The notes below the pieces were generated by a model. The model was not told the origin of the DNA, searched no databases, and saw only the letters and a program-made list of their open reading frames with translations. Made by a program: the position numbers and the translations under genes. Of a DNA stretch of 64,000 nt, positions 9,940 through 38,362 are shown in pieces. Position 1 is the first letter of the stretch; each line of letters opens with the position of its first letter. Source of the stretch: a virus. The stretch is taken from IMG/VR virus record IMGVR_UViG_3300032053_000016, positions 43,402 to 107,401 of that record. One strand, 5' to 3'.

Positions 9940-10578
9940 TCACTCTGCGAAATACAACGGATTGCTCTTGAGCAAGACACGTAGACGATACATCTCGTTA
10001 CGTGACATGTTGATCCCCAGTTCGCTCAACTCTGTCTCGACCAGTAACCGCAAATCGACAGCTGGATTCGCTGCTCGAACACGGTCGATTTTCTCAGGCT
10101 GCAGCTTGTTGGTCCATGCTGACTTGATCTCTATGTAGCAATTCCAACTCTTCACCCAGAAATCCGGAAAGTACCTGTGAGACTTTCCGTTGTCATCTTG
10201 CCAACGAAGCATACCGACATGTGAAGCAAGTTCAAGTCCATGTTGCAAGGCCCAATTCGCAAACAACACTTCATACAGTCCTTGACAGCGATACGGTCCC
10301 ACTGTGTACCATTTGGACTTGTTTCCTCTTTGTGTGTTCGCGCAGAGTTTGCTGCAGAATTTCCTTGGTTGAGATTGCCAATACGATACAGTAACTCCAC
10401 ATGCCAAACACGATGATTGCTTCGTGTTTTCGACGCGTCGTCGTGCTTTAATGGAGCACGAGACACCGCAATACTGCAATGGGTTCTTGTTATACCTCCA
10501 CGCGAGATATGAGCATCCACAATAGTCACAGTTATGCGGTGTGTCTCGGTATTGCTTGTTTCTAAGTTCTTGACTCAC
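9940..10578 (-). CDS. Zinc-finger PD-(D/E)XK endonuclease, probable homing endonuclease
   Basis: The 212-residue protein has two Cys4-type zinc fingers in the N-terminal half (CDYCG..YCGVSC and CLACG..FCSKLC). A restriction-like nuclease domain follows, with 'GLYEVLFANW' (about 99-108), 'RYFPDFWV' (about 135-142) and 'YIEIKSAW' (about 147-154), giving the E...PD...ExK catalytic set. This matches the nuclease half of the 61437-62411 protein and the stand-alone 62408-62818 protein. Free-standing homing nucleases of this kind spread by cutting allelic sites. Start GTG overlaps the dehydrogenase stop (GTGA). It directly follows a UGD-like gene that lacks its C-terminal domain and sits beside the tRNA-like gene. 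Confidence 0.75.
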   Translation of the reverse strand: MSQELRNKQYRDTPHNCDYCGCSYLAWRYNKNPLQYCGVSCSIKARRRVENTKQSSCLACGVTVSYWQSQPRKFCSKLCANTQRGNKSKWYTVGPYRCQGLYEVLFANWALQHGLELASHVGMLRWQDDNGKSHRYFPDFWVKSWNCYIEIKSAWTNKLQPEKIDRVRAANPAVDLRLLVETELSELGINMSRNEMYRLRVLLKSNPLYFAE

Positions 10579-11531
10579 TTCTTCTTAGATACGGCTCGTC
10601 CTACTAAACGTTCCCAATCACGCTGAGGGCGGACTTCGAGGTTCTTCTCCCAAGCGCCGCGCATGACTTTAGGGTCAACGCCATTTTCCTTGGCGACGCA
10701 CATCAACGCATTGAGGTCCTTGATGAAGCAGCTCCCCGCCCATCCCATTGCTGACTCGCCCGTGTCATCCGCCGGCATCGGCCCAGGGACCTTCCAGTGC
10801 GAAGTTCCCAGGCGCGCGTCTAGAGTCGCGTACTCGATCACCTTGTCGTAGTCGATGTTTGCCCCATTGGCGTCGAGCGCGTTGCAGATCTGGTAGAACT
10901 CGTTCGCCAAAGACACCTTGCATGCGAGGTGGATGTTTGTGACGTATTTAACCATCTCGGCCGTCGTGCTCGACGTTTTGATGATCGGGACGTTGGGAAA
11001 TGCCGTCTCGAAGACTTGTTTCACCCTGTTGATGTGAGGTCGAGGGCCACCGAGAACGATCCGATCCTGATTCCGCATGTCGTTAAGCGCGGACGCTTCG
11101 CGGAGGAACTCCGGACAGAAGACGACTCGAAGCCCGGTGTCCTTGAAGGCCTTGTTCCAGCGTTCGGTCGACCCCGGAGGGACCGTCGACTTCACGACCG
11201 CGACGCGCTCTCCGGGGACGTTCGCGAGCTCCTTCAGCACACCTTCGACGATACTGAGGTCGGCTGAGCCGTCCTCGTACATGGGAGTAGGCACGCACAC
11301 GAAGTAGACGCCCGTGAAGTCCTTAAGAGCGGCGCATGCCGCAACGAAAATCTGAGTGGCAGTAGGCCCCACAAGGCCTGGCATGTCAGCCGCTGCGAAA
11401 CGACCATCGCCGCCTACAGCGACCTTACCGGTCTTGTCGTACACATAGACGTCAAAGCCACGTTCCGACATAACAGTGGTAAGCGAGCCGCCGACAAAAC
11501 CCTGCCCGATGACCGCGATGCTTTTCTTCAC
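10575..11531 (-). CDS. UDP-glucose/GDP-mannose dehydrogenase family enzyme, C-terminal domain absent
   Basis: The 318-residue protein has an N-terminal NAD-binding motif 'GQGFVGG' (about 9-15), the 'KSTVPPGST' loop (114-122), the 'FCPEFLREASAL' substrate loop (138-149) and the active-site cysteine in 'GSCFIKDLNAL' (Cys268). The family oxidises UDP-glucose to UDP-glucuronate or GDP-mannose to GDP-mannuronate. Usual length is about 430 residues; the C-terminal nucleotide-sugar-binding domain is missing and its coding sequence is not seen downstream. It may work as a short form, need a partner, or have lost its tail when the adjacent endonuclease arrived. Start GTG 11531. Confidence 0.82.
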   Translation of the reverse strand: MKKSIAVIGQGFVGGSLTTVMSERGFDVYVYDKTGKVAVGGDGRFAAADMPGLVGPTATQIFVAACAALKDFTGVYFVCVPTPMYEDGSADLSIVEGVLKELANVPGERVAVVKSTVPPGSTERWNKAFKDTGLRVVFCPEFLREASALNDMRNQDRIVLGGPRPHINRVKQVFETAFPNVPIIKTSSTTAEMVKYVTNIHLACKVSLANEFYQICNALDANGANIDYDKVIEYATLDARLGTSHWKVPGPMPADDTGESAMGWAGSCFIKDLNALMCVAKENGVDPKVMRGAWEKNLEVRPQRDWERLVGRAVSKKK

Positions 11532-11540: not shown

Positions 11541-12395
11541 TTAGTCGAGGTTGGGCAAAATGGTGGATGTCCACCAATGTTCAATCTCGGCATCTTGCTT
11601 GTTGCGTTGTGGCGTGAGATCCTGCATTACTTGGAGAAGATCGTCTACGTGTTGATTTGCCCAAGCCACTGCTTTTGACTTGTTTGTGCTGCCGCTTTGG
11701 ATCGCAACCATCAAAGCCTTGAACAACGGGTGGTAAGCATCTTCACGGAAGAGATCGTCAAACGACCTTTTGGTCTTCACATCGTCGCTGTACGCTCGAT
11801 CGAACCCGTTGAAAGCGGCGTCCACGATCATGTCACGCACGTCATCGTGGCCCCAATTGCCTGGATCTCCAGCTGCAGCGATCGCCTTGTCGCCCGCCGC
11901 AAGCGCGCCCGCGATGTCGAAGCCCACGGGCCCGAGGTAGGCGGCTCTGAGGAAGTCAGGATGCTTCGCTCGCCCTGCCGTGTCAGCTTCAAGCTCGACC
12001 AGATTGGGGTTATCTTTGTTTTGATCGAAGTAGCGTTTGATTACCTGCTGCGCAGCAGGACTGACGCTGTAATCGGCAAATACACTCTTCCAATACTCAA
12101 GGGCAGCAGCTAGCAAAACGATAGAAACAACAGCATTCTCGGCGTACAGACGGTGAAGTCTGTAGTTTGCATCGTATTCACTGACAGCTTGCGCCAAACC
12201 CAACACCTTGGGGATCGGAACACCCTCGTGATTCACGATCTCGGACGTTGAGATCGCGATCAGCGATGTCATCCTGCCGTTCATGTATGACACGATCGCA
12301 ACACGGTCAAGCTGTCTGTTCGCTAGATCCATGACATTTGCTTCCTCAATGAGCTGTCGGTGGATGAGCTCACGCAGTTCGTTGAGGGTCAACAC
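11541..12395 (-). CDS. Helical protein with N-terminal (L/I)xE tag, possible internal head protein
   Basis: This 284-residue protein, with GTG start 12395, opens with a basic amphipathic helix (MLTLNELRELIHRQ then LIEEA), again ending in an LxE triplet like the products at 6852 and 7328. The rest is mostly helical, with an Ala-rich stretch at about 165-176 and a C-terminal Trp-rich end. No family or catalytic motif is recognised. The tag suggests capsid targeting by analogy with T4 internal proteins, which is an inference. It has a 9-base gap to the dehydrogenase start and does not look like a glycan enzyme. Confidence 0.55.
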   Translation of the reverse strand: MLTLNELRELIHRQLIEEANVMDLANRQLDRVAIVSYMNGRMTSLIAISTSEIVNHEGVPIPKVLGLAQAVSEYDANYRLHRLYAENAVVSIVLLAAALEYWKSVFADYSVSPAAQQVIKRYFDQNKDNPNLVELEADTAGRAKHPDFLRAAYLGPVGFDIAGALAAGDKAIAAAGDPGNWGHDDVRDMIVDAAFNGFDRAYSDDVKTKRSFDDLFREDAYHPLFKALMVAIQSGSTNKSKAVAWANQHVDDLLQVMQDLTPQRNKQDAEIEHWWTSTILPNLD

Positions 12396-12413: not shown

Positions 12414-13112
12414 TCAGATGATGTTCATGTCGAGGACGCTGACGATCGCGATGTGTCGTTCGTCACCCAGATCAAGGCAAATCTCAACGTCGTTGGTCAA
12501 CCTGTTGGTCTCGTAGATCTTGAAACCACCAGCTAACGTGCCGTAATGTTGCAATCCTCCTGGAAAAGAAGGCCTGTACATAACGCAGGCCTCCAGAATG
12601 CACCTCACGTTAGGACCGACGTAGATCTTGTTGGGTGTAACCCCGTGTTGCTTGCGCAGTTCGTTGCTCGCATCGACGATGGTCTCGATGAGCGTCTCGT
12701 ACCATTCGCGAACCGTTCCGGTGAAGACGGGTCCCATTGAGAGACTCGAGGTGAGGTCGATAGGATTACCTGTGAGCTTATTGATGAACTTTCCAGGTGC
12801 GCGAGACCAGAACATCCGAAGTTGGTAGACCTCCTGCGAAGGAGGAGCAATGGATGCGATCTTCCCACAGATCATTCCCTCCATGTAAAAGAGATCAGCC
12901 TTCACATCCTCAGCCAGGAACTTCAACCGCACGGATTCAAGAACTTTTTCAGCGGCTTTCAACGAAGGCATCCTAGTGGCGTACCTGATCTCGTAGCTGT
13001 CTGCGCTTGGCATCTGAGCAGCATAGTCACAGATGTTTTCGAACGTGACGATGACCGCGTTGTCGACAAACTGATCTTCTTTGTCTTGTCTGTATCTGTC
13101 GATGAACTTCAC
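12414..13112 (-). CDS. Protein of unknown function
   Basis: This is a 232-residue protein with a GTG start overlapping the upstream glycosyltransferase by GTGA. It is a mixed alpha/beta protein. The C-terminal third (TPNKIYVGPNV ... LAGGFKIYETNRL) recalls the beta-rich A-domain of HK97-fold capsid-type proteins, but the likeness is weak and the protein is too short for a T4-type major capsid protein. I would not assign a function. Confidence 0.5.
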   Translation of the reverse strand: MKFIDRYRQDKEDQFVDNAVIVTFENICDYAAQMPSADSYEIRYATRMPSLKAAEKVLESVRLKFLAEDVKADLFYMEGMICGKIASIAPPSQEVYQLRMFWSRAPGKFINKLTGNPIDLTSSLSMGPVFTGTVREWYETLIETIVDASNELRKQHGVTPNKIYVGPNVRCILEACVMYRPSFPGGLQHYGTLAGGFKIYETNRLTNDVEICLDLGDERHIAIVSVLDMNII

Positions 13113-14098
13113 AAGTACCTTGTTCTTTCTATGGTGCCGCTCAAACTAGCACCGACGAACTCGTCGACAGTCTTCGCGGCATATTCTCCAACGGCCTCAT
13201 GACTCATGAGCGGTCGCAAGGCGGCAGCTCGTTTCCCAAGATCGGTGCGGATCGCTGGATGATCCAACAGATGATCAATGCGTGCTTCGAGCGTCTCGTA
13301 CTCGTAATCAGGCCCAAGTGACGCGTAGTGCTCCCATTCTTTCAGCGGCCAGCAGCAGTTGTTCTGCGGCAAGGCAAGGATGCATTTACCAAGCACTAAG
13401 AACTCGTAGAACTTGCGACTTGATACTCCAATGCCGGGGAAATCGAGACACACCTTCGTGCGATTGATGACGCTGTAGTACTCGTCTGGCGGCATGAGAC
13501 CGTCGTAGGTGACGATGTTGAGATCCTTGCGTCGCTCCTTGATCTCAAGCAGTTTTGCGTAGCCGATGCGACGGTTGGTTGGCCAGTGTTGATTGGTGTT
13601 GCGACTCTTTGGCCAGCAGTACGGCTTGTTGTGATCGTGAACCTTACCGCCAACGAAGAGCACGTCGATGTCCTGTTCGACCTTCGGAAGCGTGTCAGCC
13701 ACCTTGAAGATGCGATCCGGGTCGTTCGTCATGAGGGCAAGCGGGTAGACATCCTCCTTGAACGGGTAGAACACGCGTTGCTCGGACGTGCTCCCATGTT
13801 GAATCTTTAAGACCATGTAGTCTGTGACCTTGTAGTGGTCGATCAGGTTCTGGAAACGCGGCCAGTTGAGCTTGATGTCGAACGGGGTGCCACCCGATCC
13901 GTCGTCGCCGTCGAAGAAGCACAGGAAGTTCTTGCCGTCGCGTTCGTACAAGAAGCACGACCAATTCTTGTTCAACGTGCTGGATGACATGTTCGCGTCC
14001 TGAACCGCTTCAGGAGCGTGCTTCTTGTAGAACTTCGTCAAGAAGTGAACGAAGTGATCGCGATCGTCAATACCGTAACGCGTGATCTTGCCGATCAT
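13109..14098 (-). CDS. Glycosyltransferase, GT-B fold (GT1/exostosin-like C-terminal motif)
   Basis: The 329-residue protein has a typical GT-B C-terminal donor-binding segment: a strand 'KVCLDFPGIG' followed by 'SSRKFYEFLVLGKCILALP' (about 220-250), equivalent to the E-x7-E region of GT4 enzymes. An internal 'IDVLFVGGKV' marks the start of the second Rossmann domain. The N-terminal third is divergent and contains an Asp/Gly-rich loop. ATG start 14098 overlaps the Dam gene's stop by ATGA. It is the most downstream glycosyltransferase of the 28-kb glycan block. Donor and acceptor are unknown. Confidence 0.7.
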   Translation of the reverse strand: MIGKITRYGIDDRDHFVHFLTKFYKKHAPEAVQDANMSSSTLNKNWSCFLYERDGKNFLCFFDGDDGSGGTPFDIKLNWPRFQNLIDHYKVTDYMVLKIQHGSTSEQRVFYPFKEDVYPLALMTNDPDRIFKVADTLPKVEQDIDVLFVGGKVHDHNKPYCWPKSRNTNQHWPTNRRIGYAKLLEIKERRKDLNIVTYDGLMPPDEYYSVINRTKVCLDFPGIGVSSRKFYEFLVLGKCILALPQNNCCWPLKEWEHYASLGPDYEYETLEARIDHLLDHPAIRTDLGKRAAALRPLMSHEAVGEYAAKTVDEFVGASLSGTIERTRYL

Positions 14099-14823
14099 GT
14101 TTCCCTCGTGTAGATCAGCTCTTTGCTGTGGTGGTGGTTGTCCGACTTGCGTCGACTGGTGACAGTTGTCCTAAACGGTTCGAAGGGAAGCCAGTCGGGG
14201 ATTGTGCCTGTCTTGGGACATTCGGCCTCACACACGATGACCTGCCCTCGCAGATCAGCGATTTGACCCGTCAAACGTGTGTAATCTAACGTTTTCGCAC
14301 GGTACTGGTAGTTGTACTGATACGGAGGGTCGACGAACCATGTGCCTTCAACACCAGGTTTCAGAAGCTCGAGGCCATCGACTCGAACCTTCCAGTGCTT
14401 GATGAGGTGGAACTCGCTCGCGACACGACTTCTCGTGTTCTCGGTCCACTGCCCTGACTTGTTTCCCCACGACGAGACCGTCCAGCAGCTGCCGACGTTG
14501 TTCGTTCTCTGCCACGTCTTCATGAGCAGTTCTTGACCACGGTTCATGCCGAGCTCACGCACATCCGTCCCCTCAGGGATGTTGATAGGCATCTCACGGA
14601 TGCTCGCCTCGGTGGCTTCCTCGATGAGCCACCACCACAGCGCGCACACATGCTCGTCAGACTCAGCGAGCAACACGTCTTTGCGATGGTGTCGCAACGA
14701 GTAACCAGCACTGCCCGCGAACGGCTCGATGATCATGTCATGCGTCGGCGCGGGGTAATGCTTTGCTGCTGTCCATTTCGAGCCGAACCACTTGAAGAGT
14801 GGACCTGTGATCGTGTCACTCAT
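14095..14823 (-). CDS. Dam-type DNA adenine-N6 methyltransferase
   Basis: The 242-residue protein has the D12-class (alpha) order. 'FKWFGSKW' (10-17) is the X motif, 'IIEPFAGSAGYS' (31-42) is the SAM-binding FxGxG loop, and the catalytic 'FVDPPYQ' (DPPY motif) follows in the second half. Such enzymes methylate adenine in short sites such as GATC, protecting phage DNA from host restriction or altering gene control. Length is slightly short of Dam (about 270). It sits among sugar genes with ATGA overlaps on both sides. Target site is unknown. Confidence 0.87.
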   Translation of the reverse strand: MSDTITGPLFKWFGSKWTAAKHYPAPTHDMIIEPFAGSAGYSLRHHRKDVLLAESDEHVCALWWWLIEEATEASIREMPINIPEGTDVRELGMNRGQELLMKTWQRTNNVGSCWTVSSWGNKSGQWTENTRSRVASEFHLIKHWKVRVDGLELLKPGVEGTWFVDPPYQYNYQYRAKTLDYTRLTGQIADLRGQVIVCEAECPKTGTIPDWLPFEPFRTTVTSRRKSDNHHHSKELIYTRET

Positions 14824-15485
14824 GTTTTCTTCTTTCGAATCATGCTCGTCATGCTGTTGTCAGACGTGTAATCGTACGAATGTTCTTTCGGCAACCGCAC
14901 CCAGATCGTCACGTGTTTGACGTCTTGACGAAGCGTCTCGAACACGTGACGGCTCACGTACTTGCTGTGGAAATCCTTCTCGTACTTCAGTGACTCGATC
15001 ATTCTGAAGGTTGTGTGAACGAGCTTTTCGTTGTGGGCGTCAGCGGAGCAACTTTCAAGCTTTGGCAGGAAGCTCGTGTGGATGTCCTCAACAACGTAGA
15101 ACCCATCCGGCTTCACATGACTCCACAGTTTAGAAAAAGTCGACTGTTGATGCTTCATCATGTGACTACCGTCGTCAACGATAAGGTCCCATGGGCCATG
15201 CTTTTCAGAGAGTTTCACTAGCTCGTTCGTGTCGTTCGCGTCGATCTTGTGAAGTGTAACACCGTCGATGTCCCCGCAACGCTTGATGTCCAGATCGACG
15301 CCATGGATCTCCGCATTTGGAAAGTACTCACGCCACATGCGTAGACTTGCGCCAAAGAACACGCCGATCTCCAAAACCTTCAATGGCTCAGATCTGCGGT
15401 CCTCTAGTCTACGCTCGTAAACTTCGCAGTACCCGTGGTTCGCCTTGTCAGTTCCATGCTTGACAGCAATGTCGTGTAGGTTCAC
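14820..15485 (-). CDS. Class I SAM methyltransferase, macrocin-O-methyltransferase-like
   Basis: The 221-residue protein begins with a 'KHGTDKANHGYCEVYE' segment typical of TylF/cephalosporin-hydroxylase-like methyltransferases. The SAM loop 'VLEIGVFFGAS' (about 37-47), an acidic 'HGVDLD' strand end, and 'WDLIVDDGSHMMKHQ' follow; the D-D-G-S-H motif provides metal and substrate ligands. The family methylates sugar hydroxyls. Together with the surrounding glycosyltransferases this points to glycan O-methylation. GTG start, GTGA overlap with the upstream methyltransferase. Confidence 0.75.
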   Translation of the reverse strand: MNLHDIAVKHGTDKANHGYCEVYERRLEDRRSEPLKVLEIGVFFGASLRMWREYFPNAEIHGVDLDIKRCGDIDGVTLHKIDANDTNELVKLSEKHGPWDLIVDDGSHMMKHQQSTFSKLWSHVKPDGFYVVEDIHTSFLPKLESCSADAHNEKLVHTTFRMIESLKYEKDFHSKYVSRHVFETLRQDVKHVTIWVRLPKEHSYDYTSDNSMTSMIRKKKT

Positions 15486-16288
15486 TTTCTCTCCAAAATG
15501 ATGAAGTTTTGATCGTACTTCCCACTCGAGAACCTCCCGCGCTCCAACGCGTTGAACCCCTGCATCTTGTCGATGACGTCGGCGACAACAGGCTGACGGA
15601 TGTGACCGAGTGGGTCGTCAGGTTGAGGCACGCCACCGTGTGGGAGCGCTTTCACAGGGAAGGTGATCAGCACACGCGCGTCTAGACGCGTGATGTCGTG
15701 AAGGTCAGCGATGATGTTGTCTTCGGCAGTCTGATCGACATGCTCCAACACCTCGGTCAACGTCACCACGTCAAACGTTGTGTCGTACGTGTCGCGAAGA
15801 CGATCGAAGCGAACGTCAAAGTGCTTCACATCCACACCAAGCAACGTCAACAGCTTGTTGTAACAGGGTGAGAAGTCGCACGTGTGAAGGTTGAGATCGT
15901 ACCTGTAGTGATCGCGGTAGAGCAAGGCTCCGTGACACCCATGCGCTGGAGCGATGTCAAGCAGCCTTCCTGTATGTGCTGCGTTTGGAAAGAAGCGAGC
16001 GTTAGCGAACTCCGGTCGTGGAAACGTCCTCCCGTTCCTCCACGTTGGGTCGACGAACTCACGTTGAGCCCACACCTTCAACGTGTCGCGTTCGTCTGTA
16101 GAGAGCGCGAAGTACACACTCAAGAAATCGTCGAACTGCGCCTTGATCCTCGCACCCGTCTCAGCGTCCATCGTGGCGAACGCAACGAGTTCATCGTGAG
16201 AGTAAGGGCTCATGGCATCACCGCCCCAGTCGATGCGGCCATTCGCGAGCTCGGAAGCGCCGAGACGCTTGAGAATGTCGTCGTTCAT
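15482..16288 (-). CDS. Class I SAM-dependent methyltransferase
   Basis: The 268-residue protein has a SAM-binding core in the centre: 'GRLLDIAPAHGCHG' (about 107-120) as motif I, then an acidic strand end, and 'FDVVTLTEVLEHV' (about 171-183), the classic post-motif seen in Methyltransf_11/23 enzymes. The N-terminal 100 residues are a helical extension. Substrate is not clear; the location between a sugar methyltransferase and a glycosyltransferase suggests a glycan or lipid-linked sugar. It shares one base with the upstream stop (TGATG). Confidence 0.75.
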   Translation of the reverse strand: MNDDILKRLGASELANGRIDWGGDAMSPYSHDELVAFATMDAETGARIKAQFDDFLSVYFALSTDERDTLKVWAQREFVDPTWRNGRTFPRPEFANARFFPNAAHTGRLLDIAPAHGCHGALLYRDHYRYDLNLHTCDFSPCYNKLLTLLGVDVKHFDVRFDRLRDTYDTTFDVVTLTEVLEHVDQTAEDNIIADLHDITRLDARVLITFPVKALPHGGVPQPDDPLGHIRQPVVADVIDKMQGFNALERGRFSSGKYDQNFIILERK

Positions 16289-17196
16289 CAGAGGTCCTTG
16301 AACATCTTACGGTAGGGTTCCATTCCACCCTTAGAAATCTTAAAGCGTTCCACATCTGGGATGGTTGGAATTGCTTGTGAAACGTCGTCGGCGATCGCAG
16401 AATGATGAAGAACTTGTTCGGCAATGCCGACGGGTGTTGAAACGACAGGAAGACCAATCGCTCCTGCTTCAAGAAAAGCCTGAGGTCCACCTTCGTGCAC
16501 GCTTGTGACAGCGTACAGATCGGCACATTGGTAGAATTCGTTCAAGACTGGTTGTTCTGGTCGTTCGCGATACACATACGGGGTACCTGCAGCAGCGAGG
16601 CGGCCGCAAATATATTGCCTTCTCCATCCTGCCAAAAGCACCAGTGAGTTTGGATCTTGTTGATGTCTCTTGATGAAGAAATCGGCTAAAGCCTCAGGAC
16701 CCTTTTCACGTTTTGGAGACTTTTCGTCGTGTCCTTCTGTATCGCGCTGAGCCGAGAAAACGATATTCGCGTTCAAAGGCAAATCATGCTTCGCTCTCAA
16801 CACTTGAGAATCAGCTGTGCGTCGCCACATAGCATCATTCACCCAATACGGAACCTGTCTTACGGGTTTGTCTGTCAGGATTTCCAGTTGAGCTTTTGCG
16901 CGCGCGTTGTACACGTGATACAAATCGACGTGCTTGTCGCGGTCCATAAATTCTTCTCGCTCGTCAACGCCAAACTTGGAAGGGACGAGGTGGTGGATCG
17001 TGACGACGACCTTTTTGTTCGGCTTGTCTTTCAAAAGATGTTTTGGAATGACTCTCCATCTCCACTCTGAGAAAATCCAAATGATGTCAGCTTGCTCAGG
17101 TCGCATCACCGATGACTTCGGGTTGTGTTTCAACCAATCGTTTGTCAAGGTGTCACAGATCCAGTTTTCATCAGCCGGCAACATATAGATCTTCAT
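16288..17196 (-). CDS. GT4-type glycosyltransferase
   Basis: This is a GT-B glycosyltransferase of 302 residues with the E-x7-E motif in 'EGGPQAFLEAGAIGLPVV' and a preceding 'YAVTSVH' strand. The N-terminal domain is short. I chose ATG 17196 because it overlaps the stop of the upstream GIY-YIG gene by ATGA; an in-frame ATG 15 bases upstream also exists. The gene and the adjacent endonuclease are visibly more AT-rich than the methyltransferase genes downstream, as if they came together (inference). Confidence 0.8.
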   Translation of the reverse strand: MKIYMLPADENWICDTLTNDWLKHNPKSSVMRPEQADIIWIFSEWRWRVIPKHLLKDKPNKKVVVTIHHLVPSKFGVDEREEFMDRDKHVDLYHVYNARAKAQLEILTDKPVRQVPYWVNDAMWRRTADSQVLRAKHDLPLNANIVFSAQRDTEGHDEKSPKREKGPEALADFFIKRHQQDPNSLVLLAGWRRQYICGRLAAAGTPYVYRERPEQPVLNEFYQCADLYAVTSVHEGGPQAFLEAGAIGLPVVSTPVGIAEQVLHHSAIADDVSQAIPTIPDVERFKISKGGMEPYRKMFKDL

Positions 17197-17840
17197 TGAG
17201 CGAACCTCCATTTGAGATTTTGGTGGTGAGGTCGTGTCCCTCGACAGACCGCGCCTATGTGACCTTCGCAGTAGTCGTTCGTACGAGCAGCAACCCTAAT
17301 CGAGGAGTACGCGGCAACGAACACGTCGTCCATCGTGTAACAATCAACGCGACGACACCGTTTGCTGATCTTGCCGTATTGGGGATTGTTCGGACCAAGT
17401 TTCGAATCTCGAAGCTTCACACGCGTCTCGATCGAGATCGGAACCTTTGCTCGACGACCGACTTTCGCGCGCTCGTTTGGATCTTGGTATCGACGTCGCT
17501 GACTCAGACTCAGTTTTCTTCGAGTCTCGACAGTAGGAAGTCCACTTTCCCCACCTTTTGAACCGTTGTATCCGAAATCAGGATCGGCACTTCGACAACG
17601 TTTGATCCAACGTTGTTCAAACGCTTTTGCTTCGCTAAGCGAATCCGTTTCTTCTAGCTGTTGATGTTTCCATGCGTCAACACCGTACTTGTTGATTGCT
17701 CGATGGAAATGGTATTGGCTTCCGGAACGAGCGATCGACACATGTTTGCGCCAACGTTTTTCCATGCCTTTCGACGTCCATCCAATGTAGGATTTTCCGT
17801 TTACAAGACATGTGTGACAGTAAACAACAAACCCTTTCAT
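17193..17840 (-). CDS. GIY-YIG homing endonuclease
   Basis: The 215-residue protein has the GIY-YIG core at the N-terminus: 'VVYCHTCLVNGKSYIGWT' (about 5-22), the catalytic Arg in 'KRWRKH' (about 28-33), and the catalytic Glu in 'EAKAFEQRWI' (about 70-79). The C-terminal half is basic with NUMOD-like DNA-binding repeats ('VETRRKLSLSQRRR', 'IETRVKLRDSKLG') and ends in a helix-turn-helix-like block. The family makes double-strand breaks at specific phage sites and spreads by repair. It lies between a glycosyltransferase (ATGA overlap) and a 23-base gap to a divergent gene. Confidence 0.88.
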   Translation of the reverse strand: MKGFVVYCHTCLVNGKSYIGWTSKGMEKRWRKHVSIARSGSQYHFHRAINKYGVDAWKHQQLEETDSLSEAKAFEQRWIKRCRSADPDFGYNGSKGGESGLPTVETRRKLSLSQRRRYQDPNERAKVGRRAKVPISIETRVKLRDSKLGPNNPQYGKISKRCRRVDCYTMDDVFVAAYSSIRVAARTNDYCEGHIGAVCRGTRPHHQNLKWRFAQ

Positions 17841-30843: not shown

Positions 30844-31913
30844 CAACGCGAAATATAGCGCTTTGTTTGGGAACTACTTCGAATCGCCATCAAGAGGTTG
30901 AAGTCAGTCCACCCTTGAGATACATCGTACTTGAGACGCTGACCTCCTTGTGTGATGACATGATCAGCGAAGTTGTCGACTAGAACTTTGAGCGCTTCCT
31001 GTTGATCGTTGAGATGATCAGTCTGAGCTTCCCAAGCGTGTGTCTCCAAAAGAGGACCGTCTGGTTTGTAGAGCTCACCGAGGATCGACTGCGTCTTTCC
31101 GGCGAAGCGGCCTGGGTTGACCCTGACAAGCATGGTTGAGTGGTCGGGTCCTTCAAGAGCCACCCTGATGTTGAGATCGTTGTCGTGGTTCACGATCGAA
31201 GCGCACGACGTGTAGATGCGCAACGAGCATGGAGAACGATACTTGCAACGGTTGTAGAGTGAGCTGAAGTTGTAGATGGCCACCTCGCCGGTAGCGAATC
31301 GGATCTGCCCGCTCTCCCAGTTCTCTGTGTGTCCGTGCTGTGACACGCCGTTGCCGTCTTTGAACGACGCCATTGGGACGCCGTGCGACATGCCGCAGAC
31401 CTCGATCGGCACCTTGTCGAAGCCGATGTAGCGTCGAAGCTGCGCGAGACCATGGTACTCGAACGTGCGAAAGTCGTTGACAACCGTGTGAGGCTTGCCG
31501 TATCGGCTATGACCTAACACGTTCATCTTGAACTGCTCAGACGGCAGCCAAGGCGTCTGCTCGGCGATCTGAAAAGGAATACCCTTCTTCTCGGCCTTGG
31601 TGACCACGTCCTTGGTCCAAACAGGCGTCTCGGCCATCAACGGCTTGCCGTAATCGAGGCATCGTAAAGCGATCTCAGTGAGCGCCGAGGAGTTGACCGC
31701 GATGACGAGCGCGTCGCTCGAGCGCGCCAACCTGTCGAGATCCGCGTAACGTGTGTACCCAAACGCATCGATGAGCTTTTGGCCTTTCGCGAGGTCGCGG
31801 TTCCAGAACCCGCTCACTTCGATGTCGTTGTTGGAGTTGAGGACAGGTGCGTACATGTCGTGCACACGTTTGCCTGCTCCAACGATGCCGATTCGTAGCT
31901 TGCCAACTGTCAT
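30843..31913 (-). CDS. Gfo/Idh/MocA-family sugar oxidoreductase
   Basis: The 356-residue protein has the N-terminal Rossmann motif 'LRIGIVGAGKRVHDMYAPVL' (6-25) and 'VSGFWNRD' for NAD(P) ribose recognition. The usual E-K-P motif appears as 'AETPVW', and 'NVLGHSRYGKP' follows; the C-terminal domain is the mixed beta-sheet of the family. Members oxidise or reduce nucleotide sugars or free sugars. The replacement of Lys by Thr in E-K-P may change chemistry. Context with RmlA/B/D suggests processing of a dTDP-ketosugar (inference). Confidence 0.78.
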   Translation of the reverse strand: MTVGKLRIGIVGAGKRVHDMYAPVLNSNNDIEVSGFWNRDLAKGQKLIDAFGYTRYADLDRLARSSDALVIAVNSSALTEIALRCLDYGKPLMAETPVWTKDVVTKAEKKGIPFQIAEQTPWLPSEQFKMNVLGHSRYGKPHTVVNDFRTFEYHGLAQLRRYIGFDKVPIEVCGMSHGVPMASFKDGNGVSQHGHTENWESGQIRFATGEVAIYNFSSLYNRCKYRSPCSLRIYTSCASIVNHDNDLNIRVALEGPDHSTMLVRVNPGRFAGKTQSILGELYKPDGPLLETHAWEAQTDHLNDQQEALKVLVDNFADHVITQGGQRLKYDVSQGWTDFNLLMAIRSSSQTKRYISR

Positions 31914-32083
31914 TTTTCATCCTTCAGCAGGTCGCGAACCTGCTCCAACACCTCGTCAAGTGTGTCACGTCGACTGTCCCACGCACCCTCGCGTTCAGGA
32001 TCGGAGACGTACGGGTTGCCGCCGTAACCCACTGTCATCTCATGCTCCAACCACGCTTTCAGGTACAACAGTTTGTCGTTCAT
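31910..32083 (-). CDS. Small acidic helical protein
   Basis: This 57-residue gene fits exactly between its neighbours, with ATGA overlaps at both ends (start ATG 32083, stop at 31910). It has a helical N-terminus (NDKLLYLKAWLEHEM), a Gly/Pro turn, and an acidic C-terminal helix. The exact fit shows it is real. No family is recognised. Confidence 0.65.
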   Translation of the reverse strand: MNDKLLYLKAWLEHEMTVGYGGNPYVSDPEREGAWDSRRDTLDEVLEQVRDLLKDEK

Positions 32084-32811
32084 CGATCCTTCTCTCTTCG
32101 CATGACGTAACGATCGTGTAACGTCGCGTGCCCTTGCTTATCAGCGAACCGCTTCTGATACTCGTGCTCAGAAGCGAACGAGTACATGACTCTGACAGAT
32201 CCGCACGGGTTCTTGTCTGCTACGACACCGTGAAGCATTGAGGACTCGAACATCAATACGCGGTCGTTCGACGACTCAAGTACCTCGTTCTCGTACTTGG
32301 AGATGAGCATCGCGTCAAAACGCTCGTCGTTCGCCATACACCGATGCGTGCCGCGCACGAACTTCAAACGTGGTTCTGGTATCTCAAACGTCGGGTAGAA
32401 ATTGATCTTCACCACGGGGGGAAACGCGCCCACGATGGGGTTGCGATCGAACTGGTACGCGTCACGGTGCCAATCTTGGTGCGGAGGACCTGGCATCTGC
32501 TTGACAACCTGAGCGTGAACGAGCGACAGCTTACGACCCACGATGTCCTCGAGCAGATACGGGAGCTCGTTCGCGAACAAGAAATCCAAGAAGATGTCGT
32601 CGTAATCGTAGACGTTCGGGCGTAGATGAAAAACGTTCTCCATCCTCTTCTCGTAGAAGAAGCCAGCACGCACGTCGTCGTTCCACAGCTTCTCGAGCAC
32701 GTCGACCATGAGCTTGCTGGATCCATGATCCACAGGCAACAGATCGAACCCGTTGGCGTAGAACCTCTCTTGCGGTAGCAGTTTCTCCTGATCGAAGTCG
32801 ACGAGTCTCAT
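32080..32811 (-). CDS. Phytanoyl-CoA dioxygenase-like 2-oxoglutarate/Fe(II) oxygenase
   Basis: The 243-residue protein has 'PGPPHQDWHRDAYQ' (about 121-134, H-x-D iron ligands), a strand-rich centre, and a distal 'MFESSMLHGV' with His plus 'CGSVRVMYSF' with the Arg that binds 2-oxoglutarate. This is the PhyH pattern. The family includes enzymes that hydroxylate sugars, lipids and antibiotics. Start ATG 32811 is set by the overlap with the glycosyltransferase stop. It is the second such oxygenase in the glycan block, unrelated in sequence to the one at 18402-19172. Confidence 0.72.
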   Translation of the reverse strand: MRLVDFDQEKLLPQERFYANGFDLLPVDHGSSKLMVDVLEKLWNDDVRAGFFYEKRMENVFHLRPNVYDYDDIFLDFLFANELPYLLEDIVGRKLSLVHAQVVKQMPGPPHQDWHRDAYQFDRNPIVGAFPPVVKINFYPTFEIPEPRLKFVRGTHRCMANDERFDAMLISKYENEVLESSNDRVLMFESSMLHGVVADKNPCGSVRVMYSFASEHEYQKRFADKQGHATLHDRYVMRREKDR

Positions 32812-33746
32812 GTTGCTACGACGAATTTTAGCACGTCTTCGTAGGCTTTCGCACACTTCACGATGTCAACAGACGACGGATCAGCACGACGACCTTCCAT
32901 CATGAGCGGCAACGTCACTGTCGGTGTGACGTGTGGAGGATTATCGTAATCAACCAATCCAAACTTGTACTCCTCATGGTCAGAGACGACGACGCCGTAC
33001 CTCTCGCCTACCAACTCCTTGGTGCCACCTTCGCTGGAGCAGATCACGAGACATCCTTGCGAGATCGCCTCAACCACGACATTTGGACAGTGATCTAGCC
33101 ATGCGAGGTGGATCATCCAGTCAGCGATGGAGTAAACCTCTGCACACAGATCGTGACGGATGCTGCCGGCGTAGAAGATGTCCTTGTCGGCCACCTGAAC
33201 GTCGGGGTTGTTACCGAGCACGATGAGGCACGAGCTTGGATGCTGCGAAGCACGGATCGACTTGAAGACTGCGATGTTGTCGATCAGACGTTTCTGCGGG
33301 TGCCAGTTCGACGAGCAGACGAAGACCTTCTTGTAACGTTTACGGATCTCAATCAACGCTTCACTTCGCAATGTTGCAGGGGCGATCTCGATGCCGTTAG
33401 GAATGACACGCCCTGATCGTGCACCAAACCACTTCGTGGTCATCTGCTTGTCGAACTCACTCTGCCAGATGACGTAACTGGCTGCGTCATACGCGGCGTG
33501 GATGCCACGGTTCATGCCGGACGCCATTTGCTCAGGTTTAAACCAGATTCCATCGAGGCGTTGCACAAACGGCTTCTTCGGATCGAGCTTCGTTGACGGC
33601 TCGATGAACACAAGGGCGGCGTCGTAGTCGTCGGGATCGGCCACGATGTGTCCAAGGTTGCCCAAAGCTATGGCAAGTCGCTTAGCGAAGCAGTTGGGTC
33701 CGGTGTGTTCGGCGTTGAAGTCAACGCCGTCAAAAAATACCTTCAC
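32808..33746 (-). CDS. GT4-type glycosyltransferase
   Basis: The 312-residue GT-B enzyme has an N-terminal 'GPNCFAKRLAIALG', the interdomain strand 'KKVFVCSSNWHPQKRLID', and the donor-binding region 'DHCPNVVVEAISQGCLVI' followed by SSEGGTKEL. The first Glu of E-x7-E is replaced by an Asp-His pair while the second is kept, as in some GT4 members. GTG start overlaps the upstream stop. Sugar specificity is unknown. Confidence 0.8.
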   Translation of the reverse strand: MKVFFDGVDFNAEHTGPNCFAKRLAIALGNLGHIVADPDDYDAALVFIEPSTKLDPKKPFVQRLDGIWFKPEQMASGMNRGIHAAYDAASYVIWQSEFDKQMTTKWFGARSGRVIPNGIEIAPATLRSEALIEIRKRYKKVFVCSSNWHPQKRLIDNIAVFKSIRASQHPSSCLIVLGNNPDVQVADKDIFYAGSIRHDLCAEVYSIADWMIHLAWLDHCPNVVVEAISQGCLVICSSEGGTKELVGERYGVVVSDHEEYKFGLVDYDNPPHVTPTVTLPLMMEGRRADPSSVDIVKCAKAYEDVLKFVVAT

Positions 33747-34076: not shown

Positions 34077-34521
34077 GACGCTTGAGCTCGTCCATGATGT
34101 CTCCCGCGAAGCTCGACTCGCTGAACAGGCCTGCGATGAGGCGGATGTCCTGCAGTGGGACGCGATCAAGCTTGCACTTCGTGTACACGGGGTGGACGTC
34201 GTGCTTCCACGTGTCCTCTTCACGTGTGATGATCGTGCTGTCACCGATCTTGATGGTCTCGTACATCTTCTGTGCGATCCAGCAACGTGCATCCTCATGG
34301 ATGTTCTGCGATCCCTTCGCGAACACGTTGTGAACGGTCTCCGACACGCAGTCGAACATCTCCTCCATGGTGTCCTTGTCAAGTTTACGGGTGCCGTCCG
34401 CGAACTTTTGGAGCTTCATCCCGAGGTGGTACGACAACACGTCTAGAAAGCGAGGGCCTCCAGGTTTGCCAACGTTGGGCGGGATGGTGACAGGGTGGCG
34501 TGGTTTGGGTTCGTCGTTCAT
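34063..34521 (-). CDS. Protein of unknown function
   Basis: This is a 152-residue protein with ATG start and ATGA overlap with the glycosyltransferase upstream. It has a Pro/Gly-rich N-terminus (MNDEPKPRHPVTIPPN), then a helical body with 'FDCVSETVHNVFAKG' and a basic C-terminus. No family is recognised. It probably forms a unit with the two 60-residue genes that follow. Confidence 0.55.
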   Translation of the reverse strand: MNDEPKPRHPVTIPPNVGKPGGPRFLDVLSYHLGMKLQKFADGTRKLDKDTMEEMFDCVSETVHNVFAKGSQNIHEDARCWIAQKMYETIKIGDSTIITREEDTWKHDVHPVYTKCKLDRVPLQDIRLIAGLFSESSFAGDIMDELKRRGVR

Positions 34522-35249
34522 GTGATAAATCCTCTTTTACGCAAAAATTCCGCTTCTTCTTTTTGAAAGCGAGCGTCGTCAGTCTGAAATGTAGCGGGGC
34601 TCATGTCACAACGGTAAGCGTACATTGTGATCGGCACGTGAACGCGTTTCTTAGCAAGTGCGAGCACCGGCAAGTAGATCGCTTGGTCGCCGGCACGTTT
34701 GATGTACTCGCCGTCAGCGCCGCGGTAGTTGGCGTCGAAGACATGTTTTGACACGCTCTTCTTCCAAGTCTTGAAGTGACTAGAGACCCATGGGTGTTTA
34801 TACGGGTCAACGCCAGACGGCAATGCTGCCGAGATGTTTTGGTTTGTGATCCCGTTCTGATCAAACCAGCGATGATTGCTCCAAGCAGCCTCTAGATCTG
34901 GGATCTTTTCGTAAGCAGTCGCCATGATCTCAAGTGCGTTGAGGTCACAGAGGTAGTCGTCTAGGTCGAGACGGCAGACGATATCGTCATCATCCATCTG
35001 CGACATGGCTAGGAGAACGTTGTATACCTCCCATCGCCGTTCCTTGTTGCGAACGACGCTGACTTTGTGTTCGATTCCAAGCCACGTAGAGTACGTTTCG
35101 ACTTGGTCAGCGGTGCCGTCAGTAGAGCAATCGTCCACGATCACCGCGTACCAATTGGTGTAGCTTTGACCGGCCATTGAGACAAGCGTCTGCCACATGG
35201 TCTTGACGCTGTTACGTGTGGGGATAGCGAAGGCGAATGTGACGCTCAT
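34518..35249 (-). CDS. GT2-type glycosyltransferase
   Basis: The 243-residue GT-A enzyme has 'FAIPTRNSVKTMWQTLVSMA' (about 6-25), 'YAVIVDDCSTDGTADQVE' (the D-D-C-S-T-D-G-T signature), and 'IVCRLDLDDYL' (the metal-binding D-x-D-D). These define family-2 inverting glycosyltransferases. ATG start 35249 overlaps the small lipoprotein gene's stop by ATGA. It likely adds a sugar in the glycan made by this cluster; donor unknown. Confidence 0.87.
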   Translation of the reverse strand: MSVTFAFAIPTRNSVKTMWQTLVSMAGQSYTNWYAVIVDDCSTDGTADQVETYSTWLGIEHKVSVVRNKERRWEVYNVLLAMSQMDDDDIVCRLDLDDYLCDLNALEIMATAYEKIPDLEAAWSNHRWFDQNGITNQNISAALPSGVDPYKHPWVSSHFKTWKKSVSKHVFDANYRGADGEYIKRAGDQAIYLPVLALAKKRVHVPITMYAYRCDMSPATFQTDDARFQKEEAEFLRKRGFIT

Positions 35250-35398: not shown

Positions 35399-35568
35399 GG
35401 TGAACCATCGTTCAACTCACGCAGTAGCGCGATGAATTCCTCCAGTGTAGCGTAGTCACATCCGGCTGCGCCCGCAGCCGAATACACTTCATCAAGATCT
35501 GACAGCAACCCATCCACATCTTCGGGCGTGAGGTGGATGTCACCCTTGTCATCTGCGTAGACGTTCAC
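35395..35568 (-). CDS. Small acidic protein
   Basis: This 57-residue gene runs from GTG 35568 (GTGA overlap with the methyltransferase stop) to a TGA overlapping the lipoprotein start. It is acidic and helical with one Cys. The exact fit between neighbours shows it is real. No family is recognised. Confidence 0.62.
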   Translation of the reverse strand: MNVYADDKGDIHLTPEDVDGLLSDLDEVYSAAGAAGCDYATLEEFIALLRELNDGSP

Positions 35569-36341
35569 CAGTCCCAGGTCTCCGACACCACACTCAGCTT
35601 CGCCTTGTTGGCGACAGCGCCTTCACGTGTGAGAAGCAGTTGCCCGTAACGGATCTTCTCGTCTGGCCAGCGACGATCGTCAAAGAAGACGCGACGATCC
35701 ATGATGATGAGCTCACTGCTCACGTCGGCAGGCAGATCGCACTCCTCAAGCGCTTCGTGCACCTGGATCGCAGCGTCGGTGCCCTTGTCCATGTGCCAGT
35801 CGTCGAAGAGGCAGAAGCAGGACCACATGTCTTTCACACCCTCCCAGTCGCCACGGACCGCAGGAGCTGTGTGATCACCGTCGATGAACACGAGATCGTA
35901 CTTGTCGTTCATCTTTGGCAAGACGTCAGCCGACTTCCCACGCGCAACCTGAATGCGACTTGTCCACTCCGTTGGGAACATCTGCGCGATCATCTGCATG
36001 TGTTGATCGTCTAGCGCCGGCTCAACCACCATGACCTGCCCGTCGTTTCCAAGCTCAGCGAACGCCTTCGCGGCGCACAACGCGGAGTAACCGCGGCCGA
36101 ACCCGATCTCAAGGTACGAGTCAAGCTTGTACTTCTTGATGAGCGAGTAGATGAGCAATCCACGCTCGAGGTTGGGTTTGAAGAACGCGCCCACTGTGCG
36201 GAACAGTTCAGAGTTAGGATCACGGAGCTTCTTCGCGGTGGCTTCTCCAATGTAATCGAACTCCCCTAACGAGAGGGATTCAACCGGCATGCTGATCTCG
36301 GCGAGCTTGTCTTTGATGTTGACGTTCTTGTTGGGCTTCAT
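35565..36341 (-). CDS. Class I SAM methyltransferase (Methyltransf_24-like)
   Basis: The 258-residue protein has 'YLEIGFGRGYSALCA' (about 75-89) as the SAM loop, 'QVMVVEPALDDQHMQMI' as the acidic ribose-binding strand, 'YDLVFIDGDHTAPAV' (about 147-161) and 'FCLFDDWHMDKG'. The I-D-G-D-H and D-D-x-H motifs are typical of the TylF/catechol-OMT-like group that methylates sugars or small molecules with a metal ion. ATG start overlaps the large glycosyltransferase stop. Substrate is probably a sugar of the cluster (inference). Confidence 0.77.
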   Translation of the reverse strand: MKPNKNVNIKDKLAEISMPVESLSLGEFDYIGEATAKKLRDPNSELFRTVGAFFKPNLERGLLIYSLIKKYKLDSYLEIGFGRGYSALCAAKAFAELGNDGQVMVVEPALDDQHMQMIAQMFPTEWTSRIQVARGKSADVLPKMNDKYDLVFIDGDHTAPAVRGDWEGVKDMWSCFCLFDDWHMDKGTDAAIQVHEALEECDLPADVSSELIIMDRRVFFDDRRWPDEKIRYGQLLLTREGAVANKAKLSVVSETWDW

Positions 36342-38362
36342 GTGTTACTCGTGACGGTAGTTCGCTTCTTAGGCAAGATCCCGAGGTTTTGTAGTTCTTC
36401 CGGAGGTCTGACGTCCTTCAATGTCATCCACGGTGTTTTTTGTCCAAGATATTTGGAGTGCCAGACGTGACCACCCGTCTTCTCTGCAAGCTCCTTCGCT
36501 CGCTCCTTGATGTCAAGATCGGTGACATCGCTCCACGCTTTGTCAAAGAACATGTTGGTCTCCGCGGTGTCAACGTACTCCTTGCCCTCAAGGACGTTCC
36601 AGTGACGCGTCCAGAAGTCACGGTAGAGGCGGATCTTACGCTCGATGTCGAGCCAGCTGGCGTGGTACACAGACGGCACATTCTGCACGACACGACTGAA
36701 CCAGTCCTCGTACATGAGCAACGCCTTCGGGTCGCCTGTCAACGCTAGACGACGAATCTGCTCCATCTCGTTCGTGAGGAAGCCGAGAAACACGATCGGC
36801 TCGCCGGTGTTGACGTCGATCGGGTCGCAACCGTCTGTGCCAGGCAAGGCAACAAGGCGACCTTCCGCATCCTTGGATCGCAGGTGAACTGGCACGCCGT
36901 GCCCGATTCGCGGGGAGTTACGGCTGACGCGCCACTTCCACGGTGTGACATCGAGTCGCACCTTGTCAAGTCCACCCCAATACTCGACGACTGGGAGTGA
37001 CAGCATAGGGACCGCCTTGGGGAAGTTGCCGACGAGCTCGCGAACCTTCTTCCAGTCCTCCTTACGCACGAGCTCGTCGACGTCCATCTGCCAGACGAAG
37101 TCGCCGGTGCAACGCTTGCGTGCTTCGGCCTTCTGCATGCCGTCGAAGAGGGCGGAACGAGGGTCGGACCAGTCACGCTCGACAACATGAACCTTGAGTC
37201 GCGACTCGTGATTCAGTTCAATCGAATGTTCACCAGGCTCTTTTGCATTCGGCAGCAGGTTCGAACGTTGAAGCGCGTAGAGTTTGTCACGCGTTTCATC
37301 TGTGGATCCCGCATCAACCACCACGACCTCGTCGCAGAAGCCAAGCATCGACTTGATGCACTCCTCGAACGGGTACTCCTGCTTCACGCAGTTGAACGTC
37401 GTCGCGTAGCCGGACAGTGTCACCTCCTTAGCCATCGAGCGCGCCGTTGCGCGCCAGAAGACCGCTGGAGCCCCTCGAAGGTACTCCTCGATGTGCGTCA
37501 GGTCATCAGTGGCGAACCACGATTCTTTGGCGTGTTGAACGTGGTCGTTGAGTCTCAACTCGCAACCGAGCAACTTCGCTTCAATGACGAGGCGAGGGCA
37601 TGTGTCGCCGCCGGCTGGGCAGAACACGAGACCCTTCGCGCCAGCGAGCTTGCGCAGCATTTGATCGTACGAGACGCCGCCGATCAGCTCGTAATCGAGC
37701 TCGTCACGTTCAGCGTTGTACACCGACAGTTCGGTGCCTTTCACCCACGAAGTAGACTGGAGGATCAACCACTTGTCAGACTTGACGATGCTCTCTGATC
37801 GAAGTGCTTCGATCGTGCGAAAGAAGCGGTCGTCGAAGACGCTGGAGAGCACGGTGTTGGGGTAGTCAACAAGGAACGGGAAACGGTCGTGGTAAGTCTT
37901 CTGCTGCTCTTCACTCATCCACCAGGTGTGCTCGGCGGCAGACATGAAGCTGGAGACGACGTTGCCAAGCTGAGTCGTGTGACAGTCACACGGCTTGCTC
38001 TCGTTGAGCTCATGTTTTTCAACCGATCGGTACTTGCAGAACTTGTAATCACACTCCACGATCGAGTAACGAAGGTTGGTCGCGATGGAAGGAAAGAGCT
38101 GGGACTTCAGGCTCGAGTAGTTCCCGAACACCCAGAACTTCTTTGCTCCCTGTTTGATGTGCTCGATCGTGAGCTCTGAACAGAGCATCTTGTGCACCTT
38201 CAAAGGTGCAGCGTCGATCAACGCTTGAAGCGTCAACTCGGCGCCTCCAATGAGTTGCTCAGGGTAAGCGTCCGACACGAAGACGATCTGAGCGTCCTCC
38301 GGAAGGAGCGTGTTGAAGTTAAGTTTCGCGAATAGGGATCCGTCTTGTCTCACGCCTGTCAC
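36338..38362 (-). CDS. Two-domain glycosyltransferase: GT-B-like N-terminus plus GT2 C-terminus
   Basis: The 674-residue protein joins two transferase folds. The N-terminal half has GT4-like elements: 'QLIGGAELTLQALID', then 'GLVFCPAGGDTCPRLVIEAK' with LLGCEL, equivalent to the donor-binding region. From about residue 315 a GT2 domain begins: 'YPFEECIKSMLGFCDEVVVV', then DAGSTDETRDKL and 'DFVWQMDVDELVRKEDW' with the D-x-D site. The C-terminal 200 residues are an additional alpha/beta region with many Trp/Arg. Such fusions let one protein add two sugars. GTG start 38362 is the first gene of the 28-kb minus-strand operon. Confidence 0.8.
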   Translation of the reverse strand: MTGVRQDGSLFAKLNFNTLLPEDAQIVFVSDAYPEQLIGGAELTLQALIDAAPLKVHKMLCSELTIEHIKQGAKKFWVFGNYSSLKSQLFPSIATNLRYSIVECDYKFCKYRSVEKHELNESKPCDCHTTQLGNVVSSFMSAAEHTWWMSEEQQKTYHDRFPFLVDYPNTVLSSVFDDRFFRTIEALRSESIVKSDKWLILQSTSWVKGTELSVYNAERDELDYELIGGVSYDQMLRKLAGAKGLVFCPAGGDTCPRLVIEAKLLGCELRLNDHVQHAKESWFATDDLTHIEEYLRGAPAVFWRATARSMAKEVTLSGYATTFNCVKQEYPFEECIKSMLGFCDEVVVVDAGSTDETRDKLYALQRSNLLPNAKEPGEHSIELNHESRLKVHVVERDWSDPRSALFDGMQKAEARKRCTGDFVWQMDVDELVRKEDWKKVRELVGNFPKAVPMLSLPVVEYWGGLDKVRLDVTPWKWRVSRNSPRIGHGVPVHLRSKDAEGRLVALPGTDGCDPIDVNTGEPIVFLGFLTNEMEQIRRLALTGDPKALLMYEDWFSRVVQNVPSVYHASWLDIERKIRLYRDFWTRHWNVLEGKEYVDTAETNMFFDKAWSDVTDLDIKERAKELAEKTGGHVWHSKYLGQKTPWMTLKDVRPPEELQNLGILPKKRTTVTSNT

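Follow-up and report, generated by a model that had tools for sequence, protein, structure and literature searches.

We report that the 64,000-nucleotide stretch of viral DNA analysed here (the window; positions 43,402-107,401 of the 107,401-base uncultivated virus record IMGVR_UViG_3300032053_000016, hereafter G000; all coordinates below are window positions) carries a hypervariable glycan-synthesis locus of a T4-related phage of the myovirus type, in which an exchangeable set of genes lies between conserved anchor glycosyltransferases and differs among relatives. The fixed place of the locus, the differing sugar sets of related phages and the lack of membrane export machinery together suggest interchangeable sugar coats, most likely on the phages' own particles. 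The locus type is already known from the lipopolysaccharide (LPS) clusters of cyanophages; what the analysis adds is the conserved anchors with their exchangeable interior, a lack of membrane enzymes that is consistent among the phages examined, evidence of selection and a capsid-derived open reading frame (ORF).

The bulk of the locus is a compact block at 9940-38362, which is 98% coding and holds 41 minus-strand ORFs (starts corrected) with 4-base overlaps at 29 of the 40 junctions; 17864-18397 is the single plus-strand ORF inside it (Table 1). These figures bear out the first-pass annotation of this DNA, which had described about 40 one-strand genes joined by such overlaps, and profile searches (Pfam, NCBIfam) recovered the glycan families that it had listed, namely a GDP-mannose 3,5-epimerase (GME), RmlA-, RmlB- and RmlD-like enzymes, a short UDP-glucose dehydrogenase (UGD) and a Gfo/Idh/MocA oxidoreductase. 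Its counts of about ten glycosyltransferases, five methyltransferases and two likely 2-oxoglutarate (2OG) oxygenases also stand, some of these genes being recognized by weak match or inspection only; PHROG searches with ten cluster proteins gave no match. The block that it had placed at 10575-38362 is real, but the sugar locus reaches further, to two more glycosyltransferases at 3150-5599, and its content is not all sugar-related, since homing-type endonucleases (17193, 20890 and 24726), a Dam-like methylase and the capsid-derived ORF also lie inside. The first-pass annotation had overlooked the conserved anchors, the variation among relatives, this capsid-derived ORF and the cyanophage precedent.

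The proximal anchor is a trio of a PD-(D/E)XK exonuclease and two GT4-type glycosyltransferases, here GT_A and GT_B (3150-6741), which adjoins a gp55-like sigma gene beyond the span annotated earlier. GT_A could be read in 78 viral loci among the matches listed; 72 of them had the exonuclease within three genes of it and 64 had GT_B, and many of the others were short contigs. Because the loci were picked by GT_A similarity, the counts should not be taken as frequencies in the population. The association of an exonuclease with a pair of glycosyltransferases is conserved in many T4-related phages from the environment. Flavobacterium phage immuto has the full trio, the exonuclease and transferases lie close together in Microcystis phage Mel-JY01, and in Rhodothermus phage RM378 a GT_A homolog is followed by one further gene without known function. 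The distal anchor, a two-domain glycosyltransferase (36338-38362), has counterparts of 48-51% identity in four divergent records and a partial one in a fifth, and tblastn with it against the named phages returned zero matches. From the distal anchor to GT_A the distance is 30.7 kb in the window, 23.7 kb in G008, 17.2 kb in G004, 11.4 kb in G010, 9.3 kb in G002 and 7.9 kb in G005.

The interior varies in kind as well. In seven relatives, Pfam searches of the genes upstream of the trio (70 ORFs) returned epimerases, GT2 enzymes, UGD, DegT aminotransferases, UDP-galactopyranose mutase (GLF), NeuB, UDP-GlcNAc 2-epimerase and WbqC. The G008 block differs from that of the window in encoding a nonulosonic-acid set (NeuB, a SAF domain, two CMP-sugar synthetases and a carbamoyltransferase), and it retains homologs of six window genes (those at 36338, 34518, 32808, 16288, 35565 and 26819), which indicates a conserved core with a variable remainder. 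Exchange extends to near-identical phages, in the manner of serotypes: a second record, G001 (72,728 bases), is 98-99.8% identical to the window across most of its length, yet at 22.6-25.2 kb its methyltransferase and transferase are not those of the window, and beyond UGD it carries a C-methyltransferase, a cupin, a short-chain dehydrogenase/reductase (SDR) and a glycosyltransferase-like gene. Relative to G001, the protein at 11541-12395 is identical over its first ~120 residues and diverged over the remainder, and that at 25139-25858 is 68% identical. The endonuclease genes at 17193-17840 (mostly), 20890-21609 and 57000-57773 are missing from G001 at the matching sites and 24726-25142 is also absent, gaps that in so similar a genome reflect recent mobility.

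Ratios of nonsynonymous to synonymous substitution (dN/dS) were calculated per gene on diverged homologs, codon-aligned for UGD and the genes at 25139, 23815, 11541 and 36338, for which they were 0.09, 0.22, 0.23, 0.35 and 0.33, respectively; GME gave 0.17 and RmlA 0.16. Values so far below 1 indicate that the sugar genes are maintained by purifying selection, which bears on the published doubt as to whether such clusters are functional or filler (PMC3037559).

As to the phage itself, genes for terminase, portal, protease and a gp23-type capsid protein are present in G001 and lacking in G000. The nearest named relatives of the G001 terminase and major capsid protein are immuto, Mel-JY01 and an uncultured 484-kb phage, with RM378 more distant; identity to the closest phages (immuto, Mel-JY01, RM378) is 39-41% for the terminase and 37-48% for the capsid protein. 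The phage is therefore a distant relative of T4, and the gp23-type capsid protein and T4-type terminase that mark the far-T4 phages were both found, in the near-identical G001. By megablast, none of 50,697 phage records matched the block, and tblastn of a tail protein (52063-53925) found no match in the named phages.

Of the sugar-nucleotide enzymes, GME is the firmest assignment in the block, with the catalytic motifs SSACIYPE, YxxxK and GGREKAP intact and a full-length alignment to the Arabidopsis enzyme (PDB 2c59). Relatives of GME are very common among viral contigs (at least 597), and close homologs in cyanophages carry the annotation UDP-glucose 4-epimerase or nucleotide-sugar epimerase. 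RmlA, RmlB and RmlD had the correct top family yet scored under the NCBIfam equivalog cut-offs, and no RmlC was found in the block, so that the resulting deoxy sugar may be other than rhamnose. The third, C-terminal UDP-binding domain of known UGDs was not matched in 10575-11531; the UGDs of this phage group (the window's and those of loci L099, L100, L103 and L106) have ~285-320 residues. In the Gfo/Idh/MocA protein we read ETP in place of the family's catalytic EKP lysine motif. The first-pass proposal of an unusual sugar thus holds as likely for epimerized, deoxy and methylated forms; hydroxylation is one reading only, as the 2OG oxygenases may instead hydroxylate an acceptor protein.

Flippases, polymerases, ligases and oligosaccharyltransferases are all polytopic. 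By hydropathy, which assigned four helices to a control holin, no ORF of at least 40 residues at 2.9-38.4 kb had more than two predicted membrane helices, and no polytopic membrane protein was found in the blocks of G002, G008 and G010, or in immuto or Mel-JY01. The phage would then either draw on host enzymes or carry out assembly and transfer in the cytosol; assembly is probably cytosolic. With two helices at most per ORF in that interval, the flippase, polymerase or ABC exporter, initiating transferase and ligase of a bacterial O-antigen or capsule locus are missing, and the earlier description of an O-antigen-scale cluster in a phage lacking polymerase, flippase and ligase is upheld.

A possible connection to the head comes from the ORF at 12414-13112, in which 97 unrelated residues are followed by a segment 50% identical over 115 residues to positions 458-572 of the major capsid protein (E 2e-33) and then by a matching C-terminus. 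The best Foldseek hits of its low-confidence model (pLDDT 51) were T4 gp23/gp24 (E 2e-3), a result that is not independent of the sequence match because the model's alignment includes capsid segments. G001 retains this ORF at 99.7%, and in locus L101 (1861-2283) a 140-residue ORF between GT_A and GT_B has weak similarity to the same capsid segment (31% over 131 residues). The similarity is a hint that locus and head are connected, and the protein could possibly be an acceptor, a targeting subunit, a competing subunit or a recombination relic.

The first-pass annotation had left virion protein, DNA and host lipid as acceptors; all are formally possible, and the evidence ranks virion protein above host envelope and host envelope above DNA. 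We regard a virion protein as the likeliest acceptor, and give about an even chance to a serotype-like, switchable particle coat built jointly by conserved and cassette genes. Host nucleoside-diphosphate (NDP) sugars would be turned into rare sugars, with GDP-mannose entering through GME, glucose-1-phosphate through RmlA/B/D with or without the Gfo/Idh protein, and UDP-glucose through UGD. Soluble transferases would assemble these sugars, which would be methylated, on a virion protein in the cytosol, the conserved transferases laying down a core and the cassette genes a variable part. The virus encodes what virion-protein glycosylation calls for, namely its own sugar-nucleotide synthesis and soluble glycosyltransferases. 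In part the argument leans on analogy: chloroviruses glycosylate their capsid protein in the cytoplasm using their own enzymes (PMC5408694), and virion glycoproteins are known from XacN1, a phage distantly related to T4 (PMC5852040). The best PDB profile match of GT_A is the chlorovirus glycosyltransferase B736L (E 6e-16). Several points weigh against this interpretation. No virion glycan has been demonstrated for any member of the phage group; the link between GT_A and chloroviruses is one of GT4 similarity and is greatest in the shared catalytic half; for the capsid-derived ORF, confirmed cases are limited to two near-identical contigs, with L101 as one weak independent case; the helix test was simple hydropathy; a host flippase, polymerase and ligase could stand in for the missing membrane enzymes; and G000 is a 107-kb fragment with both ends open.

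It is possible, though we think it unlikely, that the glycan instead modifies the host envelope, O-antigen-like units being placed on the cell surface by the host's lipid carrier, flippase and ligase and excluding competing phages during infection or pseudolysogeny. The sugar repertoire is indeed O-antigen-like and polymorphic, and the host envelope is the view taken of cyanophage, jumbo-phage and pelagiphage clusters in the literature (PMC7824862, PMC7029224), but neither the window locus nor five other members encode an initiating phosphoglycosyltransferase, flippase, polymerase or ligase, and no integrase was seen within the parts examined. Hyperglycosylation of DNA, with the glycan on modified bases blocking host nucleases, appears improbable. 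T4 glucosylates its DNA with a pair of glycosyltransferases (PMC13216743), there are reports of DNA glycans with multiple sugars (Pyle 2024, cited in PMC12619734), and an exonuclease adjoins the window's pair; however, no thymidylate-synthase family member (PF00303, pyrimidine hydroxymethylase) was found in G000, G001, G002 (257 kb), G004, G008 or G010, records that may be incomplete, with controls positive, which lowers this option, and a search for Tet_JBP, run without a positive control, gave no match. A glycosylated small molecule or secondary metabolite released from the infected cell, an idea raised for certain cyanophage clusters that include oxygenases and carbamoyltransferases (PMC7824862), is more improbable still, the annotated window genes including no aglycone-building enzyme such as a polyketide, peptide or terpene synthase. 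Hardly credible, finally, is that the block is functionless filler DNA of bacterial origin or an assembly chimera. Headful-packaging filler has been raised for cyanophages (PMC3037559), but here the frames are open, dN/dS is low in diverged genes and the anchors are conserved across large divergence. A join with a bacterial contig, which the first-pass annotation had named as a way to overturn its reading, is rejected: G001 aligns from window 10.8 kb to the window end and crosses the right edge at 99.7% identity (37299-56992, 19.7 kb), and four relatives (L099, L100, L103 and L106) that for the genes concerned are only ~50% identical to the window share its left-edge grouping of short UGD, exonuclease and glycosyltransferase pair. 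An assembly chimera is thereby ruled out.

Among known systems, the LPS clusters of cyanophages S-SSM7 and P-SSM2 (T4-like Kyanoviridae) come closest: a single block, free of polytopic membrane proteins, combines nucleotide-sugar epimerases, among them a GME homolog (E 7e-120), with UGD, transferases, a methyltransferase and 2OG oxygenases; the window, too, has contiguous nucleotide-sugar enzymes, glycosyltransferases, methyltransferases and 2OG oxygenases in a T4-like phage. By phmmer, what S-SSM7 and the window have in common is limited to GME, UGD, one methyltransferase and weak SDR matches, and does not extend to the glycosyltransferases. Unlike the window, the cyanophage clusters contain no capsid-derived ORF, belong to a different phage lineage and have different anchors; the S-SSM7 'minor coat protein' in the sugar cluster was considered as a second capsid-derived gene and rejected, as it bears no resemblance to the capsid fragment. 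Immuto (2-6A block) shares the exonuclease-GT_A-GT_B trio, followed by glycosyltransferases, WecE aminotransferases, a methyltransferase and an epimerase, as well as a related terminase and capsid, whereas its block is ~11 kb, has its sugar genes on the opposite side of the trio, encodes other sugars and gave no distal anchor by tblastn. Chlorovirus PBCV-1 resembles the window in virus-encoded NDP-sugar enzymes and glycosyltransferases, and its cytoplasmic assembly and conserved core with variable part (PMC5408694) are features that we infer for the window phage; it differs as a virus of eukaryotic algae in which capsid glycosylation is demonstrated, whereas the window phage would only presumably share it, and the glycosyltransferase similarity is distant. 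The capsular polysaccharide modification systems of jumbo phages are likewise polymorphic clusters of glycosyltransferases, epimerases and oxygenases that differ among related phages, and the accessible part of their description (PMC7824862) does not give them the conserved anchors and fixed position described here for the window's group.

For the sugar clusters of T4-like phages it has long been asked whether they are functional or filler, and which acceptor they serve. Purifying selection and conserved anchors argue for function, and the lack of membrane enzymes in six examined phages argues for cytosolic assembly. We suggest, with considerable doubt, that autonomous, cassette-switching virion glycosylation may be widespread among T4-related phages, with fixed core transferases, exchangeable rare-sugar cassettes and, in some, a capsid-fragment protein tying assembly to the head; if true, tailed phages would have their own equivalent of the capsid glycosylation seen in chloroviruses. 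Should the coat be on the virion, the surfaces of phages would vary chemically well beyond what has been assumed. Because immuto and Mel-JY01 are cultured members of the group, the question of the acceptor is directly testable on purified particles.

Table 1. Features of the glycan locus and its flanks in the window
Coordinates	Strand	Feature	Basis
2085..2846	-	gp55-like late sigma factor, conserved flank	PHROG 234 late sigma E 2e-5; beside the glycosyltransferase pair in relatives too
3150..4370	-	GT_B, GT4-type glycosyltransferase, anchor	Glycos_transf_1 E 2e-8
4346..5599	-	GT_A, GT4-type glycosyltransferase, anchor	Glycos_transf_1 E 1e-13; homologs in immuto, Mel-JY01, RM378
5917..6741	-	PD-(D/E)XK exonuclease, anchor	PDDEXK_1 E 2e-20
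10575..11531	-	Short UDP-glucose/GDP-mannose dehydrogenase (UGD)	UDPG_MGDP_dh N and central domains (Pfam)
11541..12395	-	Unknown protein	No Pfam/PHROG match; recombination breakpoint within, relative to G001
12414..13112	-	ORF with major capsid protein fragment in C-terminal part	Sequence match to G001 major capsid protein; Foldseek
13109..14098	-	Glycosyltransferase-like (GT-B)	Glyco_trans_1_2 E 6e-4, under cut-off
14095..14823	-	D12-class (Dam-like) DNA methylase	MethyltransfD12 E 1e-3, under cut-off
14820..15485	-	Methyltransferase	Methyltransf_24 E 2e-6
15482..16288	-	Methyltransferase	Methyltransf_23 E 4e-5, under cut-off
16288..17211	-	GT4 glycosyltransferase	Glyco_trans_1_4 E 7e-10; G008 block homolog
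17193..17840	-	GIY-YIG homing-type endonuclease	Pfam; mostly missing from G001
17864..18397	+	Probable methyltransferase	No family match; homologs beside GME in many viral loci
18402..19172	-	2OG-Fe(II) oxygenase, prolyl-4-hydroxylase-like	2OG-FeII_Oxy_3 E 3e-18
19348..19785	-	Dual-specificity-phosphatase-like protein	DSPc E 5e-5, under cut-off; CxxxxxR motif read in sequence
19925..20893	-	GDP-mannose 3,5-epimerase (GME)	Pfam Epimerase; PDB 2c59 (Arabidopsis) E 5e-93
20890..21609	-	Endonuclease with NUMOD3 motif (GIY-YIG-like)	Pfam; missing from G001
21609..22400	-	Putative GT-A glycosyltransferase, DxD motif	Inspection and context; no family match; L025 homolog beside GME and a homolog of 25139
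22397..22666	-	Small membrane protein, 89 aa, 2-3 helices	Helix prediction
22653..23426	-	Sugar O-methyltransferase, NanM-type, swapped cassette	TIGR04371 78.8 bits (cut-off 44); region replaced in G001
23815..24729	-	Putative GT-B glycosyltransferase, swapped cassette	Inspection and context; no family match; 49% identical to G001 counterpart
24726..25142	-	Probable HNH-type endonuclease	Sequence inspection, no family match; missing from G001
25139..25858	-	GT-A glycosyltransferase	AlphaFold pLDDT 81; Foldseek B4GALNT1/TarP/TarS E 1e-8; no family match
25860..26822	-	GT-B glycosyltransferase	Glyco_trans_1_2 E 1e-10
26819..27823	-	GT4 glycosyltransferase	Glycos_transf_1 E 2e-5, under cut-off; G008 block homolog
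28248..29180	-	RmlB-like dTDP-glucose 4,6-dehydratase	Pfam E 2e-57; TIGR01181 290 bits, below cut-off 365
29177..30067	-	RmlD-like 4-ketoreductase	RmlD_sub_bind E 3e-28
30064..30846	-	RmlA-like nucleotidyltransferase	NTP_transferase E 5e-49; TIGR01207 192 bits, below cut-off 361
30843..31913	-	Gfo/Idh/MocA oxidoreductase	GFO_IDH_MocA E 9e-13
32080..32811	-	Probable 2OG-Fe(II) oxygenase (PhyH-like)	HxD...H...R by inspection; no family match
32808..33746	-	GT4 glycosyltransferase	Glycos_transf_1 E 2e-10; G008 block homolog
34518..35249	-	GT2 glycosyltransferase	Glycos_transf_2 E 8e-16; homologs in L097, G008
35565..36341	-	O-methyltransferase	Methyltransf_24 E 2e-14; G008 block homolog
36338..38362	-	Two-domain glycosyltransferase with GT2 domain, distal anchor	Glycos_transf_2 E 1e-6
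43419..44843	+	PhoH, flanking landmark	PhoH E 2e-48; near distal anchor also in G002, G008

Some further observations concern the sequence around these genes. The T4 late-promoter pattern TATAAATA occurred less often than expected by chance, which says nothing on timing, and an Rfam search found no family. Just beyond the block, ARAGORN reported a tRNA-like sequence with a four-base anticodon (aata) at 9774-9852, and on the other side a GroEL-like protein of 401 residues (39051-40256), below normal chaperonin size, matches the middle of the GroEL profile only. Proteins on either side of the block contain Pro/Thr/Ala-rich stretches (40257-41225 and 6852-7331) and, given the prolyl-hydroxylase-like oxygenase, it is conceivable from their composition that they serve as O-glycan acceptors.

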